Below, piece by piece: positions 2,894 to 17,552 of a stretch of DNA of 23,638 nucleotides; position 1 is the first letter of the stretch; each line of letters begins with the position of its first letter. The position numbers were made by a program, and so were the translations under genes. The DNA lies in IMG/VR virus record IMGVR_UViG_3300008108_000452, positions 1 through 23,638 of that record, one strand, 5' to 3'. The notes under the pieces are model-generated. The model ran no database searches. It worked only from the letters and a program-made list of their open reading frames with translations, and had not been told where the DNA came from. Source of the DNA: a virus.

Positions 2894-5017
2894 ATGGACA
2901 TTGAATTAGCTGATCATTTTGATCGCATGAATAAGGTAGTCTCAGAACTACTGAAGGGTAGTAACCCTTCCCAGATTGCCGCCACAACAGGTTTTAAGAG
3001 GGCGGAAGTGTTAGAGTATATAGAAGAATGGAAACAGGTCGTTAGAAGCGATTCTGGGGCTCGTGATAGGGCAAAGGAAGCCATATCTGGAGCAGACCAG
3101 CACTACGCTATGCTCATAAAAGAAGCCTGGAAGACTGTAGAAGATGCAGATCAAGCGGGGCAATTAAATGTAAAAGCCACGGCATTAAAGTTAATCGCAG
3201 AGTTATCATTGATTCAGAGGAAGCTAGTGGATCTTAATTTTAATGATCTCATCGATATCCTAGATGGTGAGGAATTTGATGAAAGACCAGTCGATCTCAA
3301 GACATTTGTAACTAGCCCAGAGTATCTTGGGCTTCCACCACTTTCAGAATATCAATATACTCTTATTGAAAAAAGCTCACAAATTTACAAAGAGTCTACC
3401 CTAGTTAAACTGTTTGGAGAAGAAGAGGGCAGACGTCGCTACAAGCAAACCTGTAATGAAGTAATCGCACAACTTGGAAAAGGTAGCGGCAAAGATTACT
3501 GCTCTACAATTTCAGTATCATATATAGTTTATTTGCTATTGTGCCTTAAAGATCCTGCAACATATTATGGTAAGCCTCCAGGAGATACCATAGATATTCT
3601 TAACATCGCTGTCAACGCACAACAGGCAAATAATGTATTCTTTAAAGGTCTTAAAACACGCATAGATAGATCGCCATGGTTTATTGGAAAGTACGACCCA
3701 AAGGCTTCAGAAATCAGGTTTAACAAGAATGTCAACGTTTACTCTGGACACTCAGAAAGAGAAGCATTTGAGGGTTACAACGTAATTGCAGTTATTCTAG
3801 ATGAAATTTCAGGCTTTGCCACTGAGAATACAACTGGACACGATCAGGCAAAGACCGCAGACGCAATATACGATATGTATCGTGGATCTGTTGTTTCTCG
3901 TTTTCCAGACTATGGAAAAGTTATTTTACTTTCATTCCCACGTTTTAAAAATGACCCTATTCAAAAGTTTTACGATTCTGTAATTGCAGAAAAAGAAACC
4001 ATTATTAGAACTAAAACAATGAAGATGGATGATAGCCTGCCAGACGGAACAGAAGGAAATGAAGTTACTGTAGAGTGGGAAGAAGATCATATCATTTCAT
4101 ACAACATCCCAAGAGTATTTGCTTTAAAGAGGCCAACCTGGGAAATAAATCCAACTAAAACAATTGAGAATTTTAAAGTAGAGTTTTATAAAAACATGCC
4201 AGATGCTTTAGGTCGTTTTGCCTGCATGCCACCAGAAGCTGTAGATGCATTCTTTAAGTCTCGTGAAAAAATAGAAAAAGCATTTAACAATATGGCTTTA
4301 GCTGTAGATAACTTTGGTAGATTTGAAAATTGGTTCGCACCAGACCCTGATAAGGAATACTTTATACATGTAGACTTAGCGCAAAAGCATGACCATTGTG
4401 CCGTGTCCATGGCTCACGTTCAGAAGTGGGTAAATGTAAAAGTAACCGACACATACTCCCAGCCTGCGCCAATTGTAGAAGTAGATGCAGTTAGATATTG
4501 GACTCCAACATCTGACAAGTCTGTTGATTTTACTGAGGTAAAAGATTATATCTTATCTCTTAGAACTCGTGGATTTAAAATAAAAGTGTGTACATTTGAT
4601 AGATGGAATTCACATGACATGATGCAACAGTTAAAAGCATATGGCATAAATACAGAGACGCTATCTGTAGCTAAGAAGCACTATGATGATATGGCTATGG
4701 TTGTGGCAGAAGATAGGCTGACTGGGCCACATATTAAGCTGCTTATAGACGAATTATTGCAGTTGAAAATTATGCGTGATAGGGTAGACCATCCAAGAAA
4801 AGGTTCTAAAGATTTGGCGGATGCAGTATGCGGATCAATTTATAACGCTATTAGTAAAACTAAATTTGATAATAGTGAAGAAATAGACGTTCATACATAT
4901 GATTCTTTAATGCGTAAACCAAATAAAGACGACGAAGAAATTAGATTAAATGTAATTAGACCACCTAAAATACCAAAAGATTTGGCGGACGTACTAGATG
5001 GAATGGAAATACTATGA
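2894..5017 (+). CDS. terL: Terminase large subunit with N-terminal HTH extension
   Basis: The 707-residue DNA-packaging motor subunit contains an ATPase: Walker A-like QLGKGSGKD at 193-201, Walker B VILDE at 300-304, and a coupling-motif candidate LLSFPR near 345-350. The RNase H-like nuclease has D494 in FIHVDLAQ, D569 in VCTFDRW, and D640/D643 in GSKDLADA. Residues 1-130 are unusual: a helix-turn-helix-like segment (SQIAATTGFKRAEVLEYI, 26-43) is followed by a long helical region, resembling a small-terminase DNA-binding arrangement. The gene has its own near-leaderless promoter and overlaps the next ORF by ATGA. No portal or capsid gene follows, unlike most phages. Confidence 0.95.
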   Translation: MDIELADHFDRMNKVVSELLKGSNPSQIAATTGFKRAEVLEYIEEWKQVVRSDSGARDRAKEAISGADQHYAMLIKEAWKTVEDADQAGQLNVKATALKLIAELSLIQRKLVDLNFNDLIDILDGEEFDERPVDLKTFVTSPEYLGLPPLSEYQYTLIEKSSQIYKESTLVKLFGEEEGRRRYKQTCNEVIAQLGKGSGKDYCSTISVSYIVYLLLCLKDPATYYGKPPGDTIDILNIAVNAQQANNVFFKGLKTRIDRSPWFIGKYDPKASEIRFNKNVNVYSGHSEREAFEGYNVIAVILDEISGFATENTTGHDQAKTADAIYDMYRGSVVSRFPDYGKVILLSFPRFKNDPIQKFYDSVIAEKETIIRTKTMKMDDSLPDGTEGNEVTVEWEEDHIISYNIPRVFALKRPTWEINPTKTIENFKVEFYKNMPDALGRFACMPPEAVDAFFKSREKIEKAFNNMALAVDNFGRFENWFAPDPDKEYFIHVDLAQKHDHCAVSMAHVQKWVNVKVTDTYSQPAPIVEVDAVRYWTPTSDKSVDFTEVKDYILSLRTRGFKIKVCTFDRWNSHDMMQQLKAYGINTETLSVAKKHYDDMAMVVAEDRLTGPHIKLLIDELLQLKIMRDRVDHPRKGSKDLADAVCGSIYNAISKTKFDNSEEIDVHTYDSLMRKPNKDDEEIRLNVIRPPKIPKDLADVLDGMEIL

Positions 5018-5952: not shown

Positions 5953-6372
5953 ATGGTAACAACATTTGCTATGGATCTTTTTAGAGATCCATTTTTTATT
6001 GGCTTCAATCGTGAAGTAGAAAGACTAAATAATATCCATCGTGAGGCTACGGCCCAGTCTTTCCCGCCATATAATATTGTTAAGGTAGACGAAGATTCAT
6101 ATCGTGTATCTTTGGCAGTGGCTGGATTTGATAAAAAGGATATTGAGGTTTCAGTAGACAATCAAACCCTTATTGTTAAGGGTGAGGTAACTACAGAGGA
6201 AACTGGAGAAGTCCTTCACAAAGGTATTGCTGCCCGTAAATTCACACGCACATTTGCGCTTGGTGAATATATGGAGGTAGTTGGAGCGGAATTCAAAAAC
6301 GGAATGCTACATATTGATGTAGACCGTGTAATTCCAGAAGACAAAAAACCAAAGACAATCAAGGTCAAATAA
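5953..6372 (+). CDS. hsp20: Small heat-shock protein Hsp20 (alpha-crystallin)
   Basis: The 139-residue protein has the alpha-crystallin core: YNIVKVDEDSYRVSLAVAGF at about 36-55, then DIEVSVDNQTLIVKGE and a typical late segment FKNGMLHIDV. The C-terminal TIKV resembles the I-x-I motif used in oligomer assembly. It is an ATP-independent holdase; phage versions are thought to protect virion proteins during assembly. The start is fixed by AAAGGAGG seven bases upstream. It has its own promoter and a structured 5' leader. Confidence 0.95.
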   Translation: MVTTFAMDLFRDPFFIGFNREVERLNNIHREATAQSFPPYNIVKVDEDSYRVSLAVAGFDKKDIEVSVDNQTLIVKGEVTTEETGEVLHKGIAARKFTRTFALGEYMEVVGAEFKNGMLHIDVDRVIPEDKKPKTIKVK

Positions 6373-6711: not shown

Positions 6712-8739
6712 TTGACTAGGACTAAATTATGGAGATTATCTTTAGCCGCCATTCTAGGCTTTGGTTGGCTGTTTTTAACGCCTGCATATAGTGATGATCC
6801 ATTAGGTTTAGCCGCTCAAGAAATACAACAATTAAACGCAAGTGTCGCTGATTTAAATTATAAAGAAGAATTTCAATCTTTAATTTCTGAAGCAGAAGAT
6901 AAGTATGATGCTGCAGTAACTGCAAAAGAAGCAAAAGACGATGCTTCAGATTCTTATGATGCGGCGGTAGCAGCAGAAGCAACAGCTTTATCTGAAAAAC
7001 AAATAGCTCAAACCTCAGTTGATACCCAGACTGCTATAGTGTCTACAAAATTAACTGATAAAAATAACAAATATAATACTTATAATTCTGCACAAATAGC
7101 ACTTAATGCACATATAGCAACATATGGAAATGGCGGAAGTACAGGTGTTTATTTTAGGATATACCCATTGTCTCGTATGGGTAATTACGCATATTTAGCT
7201 CAAGGAGCTGGATTAATGTGTCATGGAACTATTCCTACATTTGATATATGGGCTGGATCTGGAGCTATTTGTGGTCTATCTCAAAATATAATTGGTATAT
7301 TTGAAGCAACTGTCACAGTACCAGCCGAAATAGATGCAGTAAAATTTGCTGGAGCTACTGATGATGGATTTAGACTTTATGTTGATGGAGTTTTAGCTAC
7401 AGAACAATGGCAAGAGCAGGGAACTGCTTGGAGCCCATATACTCAATGGTTTGATACATCTTCTGATAAAACATTACAGTTGCAAGCTTGGTGGTATAAC
7501 GGCGGCGGTCCAGGAAATATGCATGTAGGAGTTGGAACAAATCAGTGGTGGAGCGGAATTCCAGCAGAGTGGATTGCCTATGGATCTCCATTAACACAAC
7601 AACAAATAGACGATAGAGCCTCTTTGCAATCAGATCGTGATACCAAATATTCTCAATATCAAACAGCGTTATCTGAATATAATTCTGCTAATTCAACTTT
7701 AACAACTTACAATCAAACACTAACAACTAAAACAGCTGCACATAATACTGCAATTACAAACACATCAAATGCTTTAGCCGCAAAAAATAATGCTATAGAT
7801 ACTTATAATCAATCAATTATTGATTTAAATAATGCTATTGATGCTGCTTGGAATTATTATGAAGAACAACTAGCTAGAGAAATTGCAATTGCAATTGCAC
7901 AAGCTGCTGCAAATGCTGCAGCAAATCAACCTAAACCAGAACCTACCCCTGAGCAATCCAATAGCCCAGAACCCACACCAGAACCAACGACAGAAGAGAC
8001 CCTAGAACCAGAACCATCTCCACAGCCTACCCCCTCTCCTGAACCATCGCCTGAGCAAACTGAACCAGTCGATCCCACTCCTGAGCCAACGCCTGAAACC
8101 ACAGATGAACCGAAGCCAGAACCAACTGTTGATCCTGAGCCCACTCCAGAGCCTTCACCAGAGCCTTCACCTCTGCCATCGGATATAGATCCAGAGCCAA
8201 CTCCTGAACCAGAGCCAACTCCTGCTGAACCTTCAAAAGAACCATCAAGTAATAGTATCACAGATGATTTGAGTACGCTAGCTAATTTAACTAGCAAAGA
8301 TAATGTAATTGTTAAATTAACTCCAGAGCAAGCTGCAGCTGTGGCAAATGTTTTAGTGGAATTATCAGCAGAAGCAAAGCAGGAAGTTGCAGAAGAATTA
8401 GGAATCAAGGCTGCGGAAATTGCAGTGATTGCTGAAGCGATGAAAGAAAATCCTATTTTAGCGGCGGCAGTGGTAGAATTTTCTAATAGGGCGGAAGAAA
8501 ATGCTGATGCTCCTATGCCATACACATTAGCAGATGCGACTACAGAATTGGCGGCGGAACAATTATTATCAGATCCTATAGGAGCATTTACAAATATAGA
8601 TTTTGAAAAAGTATTTAGTCCATCAGAATGGGGCAAAGATATGACAGATGATCAAAGAGAAAAGGCACAGGAAGTAATTGTGCCAGTAATTATTGCAGGA
8701 AATATCGTGGCAGCAGCCATGACTAGGAGGATAGGATGA
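6712..8739 (+). CDS. Secreted PA14-domain, coiled-coil, Pro/Glu/Thr-rich surface protein
   Basis: The 675-residue protein starts at TTG, six bases after AAGGAG. A signal peptide (about 1-27, LAAILGFGWLFLTPAYS) is followed by a helical coiled-coil (30-135), a PA14-like beta-sandwich (about 142-292, with VKFAGATDDGFRLYVDGV), a second coiled-coil (295-400), a linker of PEPTPEPSP-type repeats (406-513) and an Ala-rich helical C-terminus. PA14 domains bind carbohydrates. A signal peptide on a phage protein suggests display or release by the infected actinobacterial cell rather than a tail fibre. It overlaps the next membrane gene by ATGA. Exact role unknown. Confidence 0.85.
   Translation: MTRTKLWRLSLAAILGFGWLFLTPAYSDDPLGLAAQEIQQLNASVADLNYKEEFQSLISEAEDKYDAAVTAKEAKDDASDSYDAAVAAEATALSEKQIAQTSVDTQTAIVSTKLTDKNNKYNTYNSAQIALNAHIATYGNGGSTGVYFRIYPLSRMGNYAYLAQGAGLMCHGTIPTFDIWAGSGAICGLSQNIIGIFEATVTVPAEIDAVKFAGATDDGFRLYVDGVLATEQWQEQGTAWSPYTQWFDTSSDKTLQLQAWWYNGGGPGNMHVGVGTNQWWSGIPAEWIAYGSPLTQQQIDDRASLQSDRDTKYSQYQTALSEYNSANSTLTTYNQTLTTKTAAHNTAITNTSNALAAKNNAIDTYNQSIIDLNNAIDAAWNYYEEQLAREIAIAIAQAAANAAANQPKPEPTPEQSNSPEPTPEPTTEETLEPEPSPQPTPSPEPSPEQTEPVDPTPEPTPETTDEPKPEPTVDPEPTPEPSPEPSPLPSDIDPEPTPEPEPTPAEPSKEPSSNSITDDLSTLANLTSKDNVIVKLTPEQAAAVANVLVELSAEAKQEVAEELGIKAAEIAVIAEAMKENPILAAAVVEFSNRAEENADAPMPYTLADATTELAAEQLLSDPIGAFTNIDFEKVFSPSEWGKDMTDDQREKAQEVIVPVIIAGNIVAAAMTRRIG
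7930..8253 (+). repeat. Degenerate repeats encoding PEPTPEPSP-type linker
   Basis: Irregular repeats of codons for Pro, Glu, Thr and Ser (units such as PEPTPEP, PEPSPEP) form a flexible spacer between the coiled-coil and the C-terminal region of the PA14 protein. The reverse strand gives a long spurious Gly/Ser frame. Confidence 0.85.
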
Positions 8740-11360: not shown

Positions 11361-11624
11361 ATGCTGCGGTTTAGTCTTTTAGGAGACAATTTGTTACATC
11401 TTAATGTTAAAGGTGCAGAACTGTTAGTAAAAAGATTTGCATCTAAAAATAAAATTGCATACTGGGAAAACTATGACCTTGTACTGTGGAATAAAGACCA
11501 CAATGGGTACACAAATAAAAAGGGCATATTTAAAAATAATACTTGGGGTATAGCTGAAAGAGTGTCAGTTAATAATAACGGAACATGGGTTCTACCAAAA
11601 CAATATGTCAAATATTTTAAATGA
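11361..11624 (+). CDS. Hypothetical protein upstream of whiB
   Basis: An 87-residue protein if ATG 11361 is used; an in-frame TTG at 11391 preceded by AGGAG (11381-11385) is a good alternative and would give 77 residues starting at LHLNVKGAEL. Both designs occur elsewhere in this phage. The body (ELLVKRFASKNKIAYWENYD, KGIFKNNTWGIAERV) is basic and aromatic, with no known family. It overlaps whiB by 20 bases, so the two are expressed together from a perfect promoter. Confidence 0.7.
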   Translation: MLRFSLLGDNLLHLNVKGAELLVKRFASKNKIAYWENYDLVLWNKDHNGYTNKKGIFKNNTWGIAERVSVNNNGTWVLPKQYVKYFK

Positions 11625-11916
11625 TCTAGGTATAGATACAGACGATTTCGATTGGTGGCATTTGGGAGTTTGCCGTGGAATGGAAACAAATCTATTCTAT
11701 GATAAATATGAGGCGGACCCGAATGTCGCTAAAAATATAGATGAAGCATGCTTATCCTGCCCAGTTATAAAAATGTGTTACGAATCAGGAAAAGAAAATT
11801 CAGAATATGGTGTATGGGGTGGAGTTTACCTAACTTCTGGAGATATAGATAAAAGTAAAAATTTACACAAAAGCCAAGATATATGGAAAAAGCTAAGGAG
11901 CAAAGGTGTTCATTGA
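11605..11916 (+). CDS. whiB: WhiB-family iron-sulfur transcription regulator
   Basis: The 103-residue protein has four cysteines in Wbl order: C23 (GVCRGM), C49 and C52 (ACLSC), C58 (KMCYES), expected to hold a 4Fe-4S cluster. GVWGG follows at 69-73 and is the sigma-contacting beta-turn of the family; a basic C-terminus (WKKLRSKG) follows. Wbl proteins are restricted to Actinobacteria and their phages and act by binding the housekeeping sigma factor, so the phage may redirect host transcription or block superinfection. This is a strong host marker. Confidence 0.93.
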   Translation: MSNILNDLGIDTDDFDWWHLGVCRGMETNLFYDKYEADPNVAKNIDEACLSCPVIKMCYESGKENSEYGVWGGVYLTSGDIDKSKNLHKSQDIWKKLRSKGVH

Positions 11917-12673: not shown

Positions 12674-12982
12674 ATGGATTATACCTCTGTCATTTTAGCC
12701 ATTGCCGCAGCCATTTTAAGCGGAATGGGAACAGCCATAGTTGCAGGATATAGAGACAATAAAAAAGAGAAAATCCGACAGCAAGAGCGTGATCAGGACC
12801 ATCTCAAAATGGAAATTAAAGACCTTAAAATATCCTTATATCAGCTTGAGCGGGAACTGACAGAATGGAAAGATAAATATTATTCCGCAATTCAGGAATT
12901 AATTGGGGTTAAATCTGAGCTTGAAAATGCCCTTGTTCAATTAAATATAATTGAATTAAGGGATGTGGACTCCGAATTTTAG
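12674..12982 (+). CDS. Single-TM protein with cytoplasmic coiled coil
   Basis: A 102-residue protein with one N-terminal TM (about 5-26, SVILAIAAAILSGMGTAIVA), a basic patch (RDNKKEKIRQQERD) and a heptad-type coiled coil to residue 95. The positive patch after the TM predicts an outside N-terminus and a cytoplasmic coiled coil. It directly precedes the proteasome-like hydrolase, whose promoter lies in its last codons. Function unknown. Confidence 0.78.
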   Translation: MDYTSVILAIAAAILSGMGTAIVAGYRDNKKEKIRQQERDQDHLKMEIKDLKISLYQLERELTEWKDKYYSAIQELIGVKSELENALVQLNIIELRDVDSEF

Positions 12983-12994
12983 AAATAGTACAAT
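12966..12994 (+). promoter_or_regulatory. Leaderless promoter of the Ntn hydrolase
   Basis: TGGACT (12966-12971), 17-bp spacer, TACAAT (12989-12994), ending 7 bases before ATG 13002. The upstream in-frame ATG at 12963 lies within or before this promoter and cannot be in the transcript. Confidence 0.72.
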
Positions 12995-13001
12995 AGGGTA
13001 T

Positions 13002-13568
13002 ATGACCTGTATCGTAGCCCTTGCAGTAGGCAATAAAGTCTTTCTTGGAGGCGATTCCGCCGCATCAGACGAAAAGTCTGGTTTAGTTCTTCAAACAACA
13101 GATCCAAAAGTTTTTAAAGTAGGTCAATTCGGTATAGGGTTTGTAGATAGTTTTAGAATGGGACAAATACTTCAATACAATTGGACTCCTCCAATTTATA
13201 AACCAACTGCAGGTTTTAAAAATCTAGATAAATTTATGCGTACTAAGTTTGTGGAATCTATAAAAGAAGCTTATCAGGAACATGGTTACGGAAGATTTGG
13301 TCAAAACACAGAAGATGGCGACGAAGGTGGAATAATTATAATAGCTGTACAAAACACTGGGCGGATATTTACCATGGATGTAGATTATCATGTTTCAGAA
13401 ATTGATGTAGAATATCTTGCAGAGGGTAGTGGACAACAGGTTGCCTTGGGATCTTTATTCTCAACGTCAGCAGTAAAGACGCCACGCAAGCGTGTTAGGA
13501 TGGCCTTGGAGGCGTCAGCTAAGTTCATAATGAGCGTAAGAGGCCCCTTTACAATAATTGAAGTCTAG
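13002..13568 (+). CDS. Proteasome/HslV-type Ntn hydrolase
   Basis: Starting at ATG 13002 (chosen because of the leaderless promoter) the 188-residue protein begins M-T-C-I-V-A-L. After Met removal Thr1 would be the nucleophile, as in HslV. GGDSAAS follows with Asp at mature position 17, the same spacing as HslV D17, and DPKVFKV supplies a lysine at 35, near HslV K33. The C-terminal part (AEGSGQQVALGSLF, then RKRVRMALEASAKFI) matches the GSGG loop and helix of proteasome beta-type subunits. It would be a self-compartmentalised threonine protease. No AAA+ unfoldase partner (HslU, Mpa) is in the window. Neighbours are membrane proteins. Confidence 0.85.
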   Translation: MTCIVALAVGNKVFLGGDSAASDEKSGLVLQTTDPKVFKVGQFGIGFVDSFRMGQILQYNWTPPIYKPTAGFKNLDKFMRTKFVESIKEAYQEHGYGRFGQNTEDGDEGGIIIIAVQNTGRIFTMDVDYHVSEIDVEYLAEGSGQQVALGSLFSTSAVKTPRKRVRMALEASAKFIMSVRGPFTIIEV

Positions 13569-13582: not shown

Positions 13583-13939
13583 ATGAGATGGCTGAATCGT
13601 TTAGCCGCCCTGTTGTTTGGATTAATTACAGCAGGTTTAATAAGAGATTTCCTAAGTAAACATACAGTTATAGTATTAGATAATGAAGTTGACTTAGACG
13701 ACGAGGATGAAAACATGGACGACATAGTTAATTTAAAGCCAGAAAACTATGATAACGCTATGGATCTTCGTGGAGCACCCACACACGTATGTCCTTGCGG
13801 GTGTAACATATTTAACGTAAAAGTTATTTTTTACGAAAATGAAATTGCTACTTATTTTTTAGACATGGAATGTGCAAATTGTGGTAGTTTAGCGACAGCA
13901 CCTACTCCTGTCGATCACACAGAAGGGTTAGATTTTTGA
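13583..13939 (+). CDS. Membrane-anchored zinc-ribbon protein
   Basis: The 118-residue protein has an N-terminal TM (about 4-24, LNRLAALLFGLITAGLI), an acidic stretch (NEVDLDDEDENMDD) and then a zinc ribbon: HVCPCGCNIF with ECANCGSL 30 residues later, ending ATAPTPVD. The ribbon half, starting at an internal ATG (13715), is a pattern common as a free protein in actinophages, so the TM part may be a fusion or the ribbon may also be made separately. The start is set by the leaderless promoter. Confidence 0.8.
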   Translation: MRWLNRLAALLFGLITAGLIRDFLSKHTVIVLDNEVDLDDEDENMDDIVNLKPENYDNAMDLRGAPTHVCPCGCNIFNVKVIFYENEIATYFLDMECANCGSLATAPTPVDHTEGLDF

Positions 13940-14117: not shown

Positions 14118-14146
14118 TTGACGATCTAGTTGTCATTTAGTAGAAT
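14118..14146 (+). promoter_or_regulatory. Leaderless promoter of the subtilase
   Basis: TTGACG (14118-14123), 17-bp spacer, TAGAAT (14141-14146), 7 bases to ATG 14154. The possible TTG start at 14130 lies between the -35 and -10 and is excluded. Confidence 0.82.
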
Positions 14147-14153
14147 AGGCAAC

Positions 14154-15080
14154 ATGAATAAAAAACTAATGGCGGCTGTTGTAGCCTTAATTACAACTAT
14201 CACATCAATTAATATGGTTCAGGCTAATCAGTCTGCTCCTGCAACGGTGGCAATTCTAGATACAGCTATTGATACTTCTCTTCCTGTGTTTAAAGGCAAG
14301 ATTGTACAAGAAGTATGTATTCTTGAATGGAATTCATGCCCAAATGGATCTAATTTTATGGAAGGTCCAGGGGCTGCCGTAATGCCTCAAGCATTAATTT
14401 CTAAGAATGGTTTTGATCATGGAACCAAAATGGCTCATACATCAGTGCTAACCAATCCAAATATCAAAATTGTTTTCGTTAGAATTATTGGCGCAACCTC
14501 TACTGGAACTCGCCAAGTTACGAATGAACCTACATTCGTTAACGCTTTAAACTGGGTTCTTGCTAACAAAGACAAGTATAATATTCAGGCAGTAGCAATG
14601 TCTCAGGGCCATCACAATGTTGGATCAGGACCCAACTATTGCCCATCTACACCACAAACAGAATCTTTAATTAAGTCTCTTCAGAATGTAAACGTGCCAG
14701 TATTTTTGCCTGCTGGAAATAATAGAGATCTAACGAGAATATCTTGGCCATCATGCATTGACGCATCTATTTCTGTTAGTGCAACTGCTTACGGAGATGG
14801 TGCAGCAATCTATACAAACTTTGATGCCAAGAAGACAGATTATTTTGCTATGGGATCAGTTCAGGTTATGCTTCCAGGAGGTAAACTTGTCAATGAGGCA
14901 GGAACTTCTGTTTCGGTTCAAGTTGCTGCTGCTCTTTACATGCATCTAAAAGAAAAAAATCCTACATATAGTTATTCACAAATGCTTTCTCTGCTTGATT
15001 CTAAGTCAGTGCAAACGGTAGGGAAGAGGGCAGTTGCAAAAGGTAAGCTTTTATCTGCAGAGGTAATACTTCGTGGATAA
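14154..15080 (+). CDS. Secreted subtilisin-like serine protease (S8)
   Basis: The 308-residue protein has an N-terminal signal peptide (1-24, KKLMAAVVALITTITSI then VQA) and the S8 catalytic triad: D36 in AILDTAID, H89 in GFDHGTKMAH, S252 in AGTSVSVQVAAA, with the oxyanion Asn in LPAGNN (about 189). The propeptide is absent or very short, since the catalytic Asp is only about 11 residues into the mature part. It would act outside the infected cell, perhaps on host surface or lysis proteins. It overlaps the next gene by 8 bases. Confidence 0.9.
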   Translation: MNKKLMAAVVALITTITSINMVQANQSAPATVAILDTAIDTSLPVFKGKIVQEVCILEWNSCPNGSNFMEGPGAAVMPQALISKNGFDHGTKMAHTSVLTNPNIKIVFVRIIGATSTGTRQVTNEPTFVNALNWVLANKDKYNIQAVAMSQGHHNVGSGPNYCPSTPQTESLIKSLQNVNVPVFLPAGNNRDLTRISWPSCIDASISVSATAYGDGAAIYTNFDAKKTDYFAMGSVQVMLPGGKLVNEAGTSVSVQVAAALYMHLKEKNPTYSYSQMLSLLDSKSVQTVGKRAVAKGKLLSAEVILRG

Positions 15081-15333: not shown

Positions 15334-15819
15334 ATGCAAACATTTTTACCAGAGGCGGACTTTGCAAAGACTGCTAAACATTTAGATCGTAAGCGTTTGA
15401 TTAAACAAAGCGTAGAAAATTTACAGGTATTGAAGTCACTTGCTGGCTATTACAATGAGTCTGGGGCTTGGGTAAATCATCCAGCAGTTAAAATGTGGGA
15501 GGGTCATGAAGATTGGCTGTTCCTGTATAATGAAGCCATAGTTAAAGAGATCATTATGCGTGGCTATAAAAATAGTACAAGAGAAACTTTTGATAAGATT
15601 TATCAGGAAAACTTCATGATGCTTGAATCAAATGAGCCGTGGTGGCTAGGAGATGAACGCCTACATTACTCTCACAAGGGCAGATTATATGAAAAAGACC
15701 CAGATAAATATTATTTCTACTCAGAGTTTGCGGACTACCGTGAACTAGGGTATACTTGTTGCGAATCTTGCAGTTACTATTGGCCAACTCATGCGGAGGA
15801 CACAGATGAATCTAACTAA
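15334..15819 (+). CDS. MSMEG_6728-like conserved protein
   Basis: The 161-residue protein starts MQTFLPEADFAKTAKHLDRK, continues with RLIKQSVENLQVLKSL and VNHPAVKMWEGHEDWLFLYN, then EIIMRGYKN. This is the pattern of a conserved actinobacterial family (MSMEG_6728-like) that is sometimes annotated as pyrimidine-dimer glycosylase related; I cannot confirm the activity. The last 25 residues add CCESCSYYWPTHAED, a cysteine group not usual in the family and possibly a zinc-binding extension. It overlaps thioredoxin by 14 bases. Confidence 0.75.
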   Translation: MQTFLPEADFAKTAKHLDRKRLIKQSVENLQVLKSLAGYYNESGAWVNHPAVKMWEGHEDWLFLYNEAIVKEIIMRGYKNSTRETFDKIYQENFMMLESNEPWWLGDERLHYSHKGRLYEKDPDKYYFYSEFADYRELGYTCCESCSYYWPTHAEDTDESN

Positions 15820-16108
15820 TGAAACCTTTAGTAAAGCTTTAGATGACAATAAAGTATTAATTGTAGATTTTTGGGCGGATTGGTGTGGGCCTTGTTTAAA
15901 GGTTGCTCCAATACTAGATGAAATAGCTAACGAGTACAATGTTACTTTTGCTAAAGTTCATGTAGATGAAGAACAAGATTTGGCATATAAGTATGATGTT
16001 TCTACTATACCAACACTATTGGTATTTGAAAACGGATTACCTGTCAAAAGAGTGGTTGGCGCACAGCCTAAACACAAACTCGTGAAAGAGTTTGAAGGAT
16101 GGATTTAA
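15806..16108 (+). CDS. trxA: Thioredoxin
   Basis: The 100-residue protein starts at ATG 15806, six bases after GGAGG (the ATG at 15791 is upstream of that site). It has VDFWADWCGPCLKVAPILDE with the catalytic WCGPC at 26-30 and the cis-proline motif STIPTLLVF (P69). Length matches a single thioredoxin fold. It is a cytoplasmic disulfide reductase; phage thioredoxins may serve ribonucleotide reduction, DNA polymerase processivity or the many thiol/zinc proteins here. Partner genes are not in the window. Confidence 0.95.
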   Translation: MNLTNETFSKALDDNKVLIVDFWADWCGPCLKVAPILDEIANEYNVTFAKVHVDEEQDLAYKYDVSTIPTLLVFENGLPVKRVVGAQPKHKLVKEFEGWI

Positions 16109-16379: not shown

Positions 16380-17552
16380 ATGACTTCATTCAAGAAAATC
16401 GCTCTAGCCGTGGTTGCAGCCATGACTATGGGTACCCTTGTCGCAACACCTGCAAGTGCTGCCCCAATGACAGTTGCTTTGGATGTTAACGGAACTGCAA
16501 ATACAACTGCTTCCGCTAGCGCCACACCTGCTCTATTGCCAGTACCTTCAGATAACGAAGTAAATGCTGCAGACGCTCTTAAGTTTGTTGCAACTGTTGA
16601 TACAGGAACTGCCGTAACTGCTACATGCACAAACTGCACAATTGTATCAGCACTTCACACATCAACTGCTCCAGTAACTGCATCGTCAGGATCTTCATCT
16701 TTGACAATTGCAACTGGTACAGGAACAACTGCAACGTTTTATGTATATACTAAAACGACAGCAATTGGTACCGTGGTTGTAAATAACCAAGGAACCACAC
16801 TTACATATTATGTACAGGGACAAGTAGGAAAGATCAATACTCTTACCGTTGCTGCCCCTGCAAGCGGTGCTGCTGGAACCAAGCAAACAATTACCGTAAC
16901 TGCTACAGATATCTTTGGAAACAAAGTCTCTGGTAAGTCTGTTACTGGTCGTGTTTTCGGTTCAGGCGGAACTCTTGAAACAACTACTGCCACAACTGGT
17001 GCTACTCTAGCAACATTTGGGGTTGCAGAATTCAAGGTAACTCTACCGACAGACTCAACACGCTCTCTTGTAGAGTTTTCGTTGACAACTGCAACAGATG
17101 GAGAGGCTGCTAACGTAACTGGTTTAACAGCACGTACTCTTGCTCCATATGCAGAAATTGCAGTACGTGATCTCGCTGCTGAACTTGCAAAGGCTCAGGC
17201 AGATCTTGCTGCAGAAAAGACAGCCGCTGCTGCTGCTAAGGCTGCTGCAGATAAGGCTCTCGCAGATGCTGTAGCTAAGGCTGCTGCCGATGCTACCGCT
17301 GCTAAGCTTGCTGCCGATGCTGCTGCTGCAACTGCTGCTGCAGAAATTGTTAAACTCAAGGCCGATGCCGTAACCGCTAAGGTTGCTGCTGATAAGGCAC
17401 TTGCAGATGCACAATCTGCTGCTGCTGCAGAACTTGCAAAAGTTAAGGCAGACAATGCTGCTGCTATTGCAGCCATGAAGAAGGCGTTCAATGCTCTCGC
17501 TAAGAAGTGGAATGCAAAGAACCCAACTGCTAAGGTTGCTCTTGTAAAGTAA
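16380..17552 (+). CDS. Secreted Ig-like/coiled-coil surface protein
   Basis: The 390-residue protein has a classical signal peptide (FKKIALAVVAAMTMGTLVA, cleavage after ASA near 27). A Thr/Ala-rich beta region follows; about 150-255 looks like a Big/invasin-type Ig-like domain (KQTITVTATDIFGNKVSGKS). Residues about 262-375 are an Ala-Lys-Asp coiled coil (KAAADKALADA repeats), then KKWNAKNPTAKVALVK. No membrane anchor or sortase signal is seen. Composition is more GC- and Ala-rich than neighbours, resembling abundant secreted proteins of actinobacteria, so acquisition from a host is plausible. It is followed by a strong terminator. Confidence 0.85.
   Translation: MTSFKKIALAVVAAMTMGTLVATPASAAPMTVALDVNGTANTTASASATPALLPVPSDNEVNAADALKFVATVDTGTAVTATCTNCTIVSALHTSTAPVTASSGSSSLTIATGTGTTATFYVYTKTTAIGTVVVNNQGTTLTYYVQGQVGKINTLTVAAPASGAAGTKQTITVTATDIFGNKVSGKSVTGRVFGSGGTLETTTATTGATLATFGVAEFKVTLPTDSTRSLVEFSLTTATDGEAANVTGLTARTLAPYAEIAVRDLAAELAKAQADLAAEKTAAAAAKAAADKALADAVAKAAADATAAKLAADAAAATAAAEIVKLKADAVTAKVAADKALADAQSAAAAELAKVKADNAAAIAAMKKAFNALAKKWNAKNPTAKVALVK

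Follow-up and report, generated by a model that had tools for sequence, protein, structure and literature searches.

What kind of protein does the frame that closes at position 13568 of the window encode, and how might it act in a phage that seems to bring no unfoldase along? The window is the whole stretch of 23,638 nucleotides of viral DNA analysed here. The preliminary description read the gene as a phage protease of the proteasome or HslV type. Here, we found that one half of this reading stands, a phage Ntn threonine peptidase of the proteasome superfamily, while the other half, HslV proper, does not agree with the phylogenetic tree or with the lack of HslU. The explanation that we favour, and consider reasonably probable, is a peptidase of the AAH type, carried by a clade of actinophages, which would form a ring and degrade proteins without an AAA+ partner of its own.

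Gene start and promoter

On the plus strand, the open frame extends from ATG 12963 to a stop at 13568 (ORF analysis of the window). The coordinates proposed earlier, 12966-13568, were thus one codon late at the front and correct at the end, and the true start lies at ATG 13002. The preliminary description had itself moved the start inward on the strength of a leaderless promoter, and the relatives bear this out. A -10 element, TAGTACAAT (12986..12994, +), is separated from ATG 13002 by 7 bases; a TANNNT box occupies the promoter place in 54 of 54 non-redundant relatives and takes the form TAGTAYAMT, 6 or 7 bases from the ATG, in 51 of them. An in-frame start codon further upstream is present in only 4 of these 54, and in many a stop codon stands four codons upstream of the ATG. 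The longer frame from ATG 12963 was rejected, since its 13-codon upstream extension (12963..13001, +) is not conserved in the relatives; it is spurious and does not code for the peptidase. Because the box is universal and upstream in-frame starts are so rare, we regard the start at 13002 as secure and the mRNA as most likely leaderless, judging from the sequence. A phage-wide test for leaderless starts in the relative G001 gave a weak signal (10 versus 6 expected); we therefore base the start on its conservation at the peptidase gene, without appeal to a rule for the whole phage. Boxes resembling TATAAT, 6-7 bases before an ATG, were also seen at the window genes starting at 2894, 5368, 8949 and 13583 (all +), and further leaderless transcripts are therefore likely.

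The gene so delimited (13002..13568, +) encodes 188 amino acids, and the predicted protein begins MTCIVALAVGNKVFLGGDS. Met-Thr at the N-terminus, as proposed, is kept in all 86 aligned relatives; the case that would have spoken against the reading, homologues without Thr directly after Met, was not encountered. Nor did the start analysis of the 54 non-redundant relatives reveal a propeptide before this Thr, again as described. An fMet that precedes Thr is removed by host deformylase together with methionine aminopeptidase. Since the Met would be cleaved in this way, Thr1 would be exposed on synthesis without a propeptide, and the mature N-terminus would read Thr-Cys-Ile-Val.

Fold, active site and family

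The window protein matches PHROG 1040 ('peptidase HslV family') with an E-value of 2e-15, and reaches 14.6 bits against PF00227, under the curated cut-off of 22.4 bits; 24 of the 86 relatives match this Pfam family at E<=0.1, the best at 2.8e-9. When a profile of the 86 sequences was compared with the PDB, HslV (4e-8), BPH (5e-8, over full length) and 20S beta were matched, and the best 60 matches listed were all of the proteasome family. The AlphaFold2 single-chain model is confident (pLDDT 93.9, pTM 0.89) and shows the Ntn/proteasome beta fold, a two-sheet sandwich with flanking helices, so that the other outcome considered beforehand, a fold that is not the Ntn sandwich, can be set aside. 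The helices form two pairs (51-59 with 75-93, and 145-154 with 161-175; H1-H4), H2 spanning 75-93; the final strand is 184-187, and H5/S12 are absent. Foldseek returned 1058 PDB chains at E<=0.001, the top hits all being BPH, HslV or 20S, in the order BPH (5ovs/5ovt), HslV and 20S beta. The Pfam match is remote, yet profile and fold agree on a proteasome-like Ntn hydrolase, and we hold membership of this family to be virtually certain. Homologues were found by tblastn in 45 named phage records, nearly all alignments beginning at residue 1, and IMG/VR holds at least 80 relatives with 74-100% identity. One homologue, that of Pseudoalteromonas phage J2-1 (L001:4001-5167), is 388 amino acids long and carries about 200 extra C-terminal residues.

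Is the active site intact? We aligned the 86 relatives, with HslV and 20S beta for comparison, and found Thr2, Gly16, Asp18, Lys36, Arg52, Gly142 and Gly144 to be invariant; the catalytic residues are the same as in the aligned HslV and 20S beta. The features that define the family, Thr1/Ser1, Asp17, Lys33 and Gly47, are all present and invariant or nearly so. The nucleophile is Thr2 (mature Thr1; codon 13005..13007, +), and Asp18 (codon 13053..13055, +) falls exactly at the predicted mature position 17, each in 86 of 86 sequences. For Lys36 (mature Lys35; codon 13107..13109, +; also 86 of 86), said to follow HslV spacing, only the identity of the residue holds: it aligns with Lys33 of HslV and 20S, but it stands at 35 in the window clade, where the preceding loop carries a two-residue insertion, and at 33 in HslV and in the majority of the other phage members. 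Gly46 (codon 13137..13139, +), by alignment the oxyanion-hole Gly (Gly45/47), is Gly in 83 and Ala in 3 of the 86. The GSGQ loop noted near the end was confirmed at residues 142-145; its Gly-Ser-Gly (13425..13433, +) corresponds to the G-S-G in HslV and in 20S beta, the Ser129 loop of the latter, and both Gly are invariant in the 86 sequences. The middle residue of this G-x-G varies (Cys 68, Ser 14, Ala 3, Thr 1), and with Cys, Ser or Ala at the position of Ser129 the surroundings of the active site differ from HslV. The dN/dS ratio of about 0.05 over 137 pairs indicates strong purifying selection, which argues against a gene kept by chance. On these grounds, an active threonine peptidase is a likely prediction.

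A further segment sets the protein apart. After helix 2, residues 94-111 (HGYGRFGQNTEDGDEGGI; 13281..13334, +) form an acidic loop at the pore-loop place, with a net charge of -3 to -4 in the window clade and about -1 in other AAH proteins, and near absent in HslV.

To which branch of the superfamily does the protein belong? The maximum-likelihood tree drew on the window clade, other phage proteins and bacterial proteins, with HslV, 20S alpha and beta and, as we read them, four Anbu-like rows for comparison. One clade (99/98) joins the window clade with other phage proteins and with proteins of Azospirillum, Skermanella, Frankia, Actinomadura, Bacillota and others; HslV, the two 20S subunit types and the Anbu-like rows all lie outside it. 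HslV forms its own clade (98/98) with the window protein outside, and the 20S PrcB group is separate as well (100/99), so that the window protein is not in actinobacterial 20S beta. HslV proper was rejected on its separate clade and the lack of HslU. A genome scan located chromosomal relatives in Azospirillum, Skermanella, Frankia, Actinomadura, Paenibacillus and others; among 396 Actinomycetota genomes scanned, the protein was present only in Frankia QA3 itself.

This distribution recalls AAH, a proteasome homologue of alpha-proteobacteria, Actinobacteria, Bacillota and phages described by Fuchs, Alva and Lupas in 2021 (PMC8665760), for which no propeptide, no co-occurring AAA+ and no function were reported. 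The window protein has the AAH architecture, a compact subunit with H1-H4, no H5/S12 and no propeptide (model and start analysis), and it matches the AAH type by taxa, tree and architecture, not by comparison with the representative of that paper, WP_035979212 (PMC8665760). As a kind it is not new, since PHROG 1040 covers such proteins and AAH and PPH were described in 2021 (PMC8665760).

The 2021 survey reported no suggestive genomic context for AAH (PMC8665760). On symbiotic plasmids of Rhizobium and Sinorhizobium, eight AAH genes (L252, L253, L388-L393) have a sigma-54 -24/-12 promoter and a NifA-type TGT-N10-ACA site upstream, a combination that random windows drawn from these plasmid loci show in about 2% of cases, and in four Sinorhizobium species AAH lies between nifQ/rpoN2 and the nifS-nifW-fix genes. 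A role of the whole family in nitrogen fixation, which these plasmids suggested, was rejected by 80 other AAH genome loci, where neither a nif cluster within 8 kb nor a sigma-54/NifA promoter was present. On one Rhizobium etli plasmid (L256), an Hsp20 gene is found about 1.7 kb upstream of AAH.

Carrier phage and gene neighbourhood

Which phage carries the gene? The terminase large subunit (2894..5017, +) is about 60% identical to those of the Streptomyces phages Gilson, Circinus and others (Stanwilliamsviridae). A WhiB transcription factor is encoded at 11605..11916 (+; PF02467, E 1e-9), and all 12 long relatives searched contain such a gene; among the control genomes, the search matched WhiB only in Corynebacterium. 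WhiB is a marker of Actinobacteria and their phages. Based on the terminase and on WhiB here and in all 12 relatives, the host is very probably an actinobacterium. The 2021 survey could not find an Actinobacteria-specific phage with AAH (PMC8665760). Among the actinophages of the phage record collection, DSL-LC01 alone has a further homologue, and this protein branches outside AAH. Proteasome-like proteins of this non-AAH actinophage type (L007:4001-4954, L089, L090) also lie close to a WhiB gene, at less than 1 kb, and the two kinds possibly represent separate acquisitions in a similar context.

Nearly all relatives share the gene order around the peptidase, as do the terminase-anchored relatives that reach the locus in that order; some terminase relatives are ordered otherwise. 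The upstream neighbour (12674..12982, +), with an N-terminal membrane helix and a coiled coil, is conserved in 75 of 79 relatives. The downstream neighbour (13583..13939, +), with an N-terminal hydrophobic helix and a Cys-rich C-terminus, is conserved in 78 of 78 and has its own leaderless promoter, TATAAT-N6-ATG. The conserved block also holds Hsp20 (5953..6372, +; PF00011, E 2e-20; 12 of 12 long relatives), thioredoxin, a CHAP lysin and a secreted subtilisin-like S8 protease (14130..15080, +; PF00082, E 6e-10; 71 of 75 relatives), whose real start is probably ATG 14154. The S8 gene is the next but one after the peptidase, and its product has a signal-like N-terminus and an apparent Asp-His-Ser triad; the thioredoxin gene lies at 15791-16108. 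Two large secreted-looking proteins (6712-8739 and 16380-17552) are kept in most relatives; one of them has long repeats rich in Pro and Glu and matches PA14 weakly, the other is Ala/Thr-rich with a coiled coil. The relative G001 (119.8 kb; L265-L270) contains many paralogous genes of about 210-300 amino acids, with starts like 'PGIxVYKNM', which look like 2-oxoglutarate oxygenase-type proteins.

Could the peptidase serve in the capsid? In G001, a separate S78 prohead protease adjoins the capsid gene. The peptidase is thus not needed for capsid maturation, and its identity as a prohead protease was rejected.

Does the phage supply an unfoldase? The preliminary description saw no AAA+ partner, and the same holds in longer genomes: no ClpX/HslU/ClpB-type AAA+ and no hslU partner (PF07724) was detected in 12 relatives of 78-120 kb, which are perhaps incomplete, so that an AAA+ could be missed. 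PF00004 left sub-threshold traces in 5 of the 12; one of them (L264) was rejected as an AAA+ partner, being a 253-aa kinase/NMN-adenylyltransferase-like protein. At E<=0.001, PF07724 likewise found no match in eight named phages that carry a family member. Ten other viral records included one with a clear PF07724 match (G428) and two with matches barely at the cut-off.

Mode of action and relation to known systems

How might such a peptidase work? Removal of fMet before Thr would free the nucleophile without a propeptide. We propose that the subunits would self-assemble into a BPH-like ring complex, that the acidic loop after helix 2 might line or gate its pore, and that the complex would cleave unfolded or small proteins during infection without an AAA+ partner of its own. 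Holdases such as the phage Hsp20 could possibly feed it, as their co-occurrence suggests. Degradation without a dedicated AAA+ is favoured by the acidic loop, a feature that in BPH has been linked to the lack of an unfoldase (PMC8665760). Three modes had been suggested for the protein, acting alone, using a host ATPase or modifying the host proteasome; of these, the first sits somewhat better with the acidic pore loop and the missing partner gene. Taken by itself, a ring without a dedicated AAA+ falls a little short of even chances in our estimate.

The main rival has a host AAA+ unfoldase (Mpa/ARC, ClpX or ClpC) feed the peptidase, which would yield a hybrid protease for chosen host or phage proteins. 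It would account for the lack of a phage unfoldase in the 12 long relatives and the eight named phages, and host unfoldases should be at hand, since 12 of 12 sampled AAH-bearing bacterial genomes also carry HslV or 20S. However, in its length and acidity the loop after helix 2 resembles that of BPH and not the short one of HslV, docking motifs were not seen, and no co-occurring AAA+ has been reported (PMC8665760); we judge this arrangement unlikely, though the best of the rivals. Slightly less likely still is a specific processing enzyme that acts on a single phage or host protein, by cleavage or by ligation in the manner of connectase, without bulk degradation. A ligase, connectase, is indeed found among proteasome-like homologues (PMC8665760), and nearby genes encode secreted proteins and another protease, but connectase is without H1 and H2, both of which are present in the model of the window protein, and the capsid is already served by its own S78 protease. 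That the peptidase enters or poisons the host 20S proteasome, and so alters host protein turnover during infection, would suit an actinobacterial host, of a phylum where 20S proteasomes are common; it is very improbable for a protein far from actinobacterial 20S beta in the tree, with no alpha partner, and of a family that also occurs in phages and bacteria of phyla having HslV instead. A catalytically dead scaffold that merely keeps the fold, to which the Ala in place of the HslV Ser of the G-S-G loop in some clade members might point, is the most improbable of all, given that even widely diverged sequences retain Thr1, Asp17, the Lys and the oxyanion Gly, and that dN/dS is 0.05.

We return to the favoured reading, an AAH-type ring that degrades proteins without its own AAA+. 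In its boldest form, actinophages would bring into hosts with the Pup-proteasome system a self-standing proteasome-like degradation machine, independent of ATP and of any cellular partner and assisted by the phages' own Hsp20. We regard this form as rather doubtful; if true, the machine would be a viral protease for protein quality or host takeover. An actinophage clade that keeps AAH under strong selection offers both small proteins to purify and a host phylum with well-studied proteasome biology; with them, one could put to the test whether a virus can be served by a proteasome-like peptidase that has no AAA+ unfoldase dedicated to it.

How does the protein compare with known systems? From Anbu it differs by the absence of the long C-terminal coiled-coil helix H5, the chain ending with strand 184-187. 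With PPH it shares the carriage of a proteasome-like peptidase by phages; PPH is, however, a shorter family of about 140 residues without helix H2 (PMC8665760), and this identity was rejected by the 188-residue length and the presence of H2. HslV (ClpQ), which forms a hexameric double ring, has Thr1, Asp17, the Lys, the oxyanion Gly and the G-S-G loop in common with the window protein, but forms a separate clade; the window clade has no hslU, a long acidic loop after helix 2 and Lys at 35 instead of 33. BPH, the betaproteobacterial proteasome homologue (PDB 5ovs), is the best Foldseek match (E 1.5e-10, TM 0.68-0.77), matches the profile over full length and has an acidic loop at the same place, yet is only 16-21% identical in structural alignments; it is chromosomal and solved as a heptameric double ring, whereas the window protein is known from a single-chain model. 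The HslV-like protein of DSL-LC01 (Actinomycetia phage, OQ999401, L007) is likewise actinophage-borne, with an adjoining WhiB gene and the catalytic residues kept, but shows 28-30% identity and falls outside the AAH clade together with L089 and L091. Closest is AAH (PMC8665760), which agrees in fold, catalytic residues, the lack of a propeptide and of an AAA+ partner, and in its nearest chromosomal relatives (Azospirillum, Frankia, Bacillota). Within it, the window clade forms a deep separate branch with 35-43% identity to the bacterial members, has the two-residue insertion before the Lys and the more acidic loop after helix 2, and is carried by an actinophage, the carrier that the 2021 paper could not find. 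The family itself is already described; the new part is the actinophage clade.
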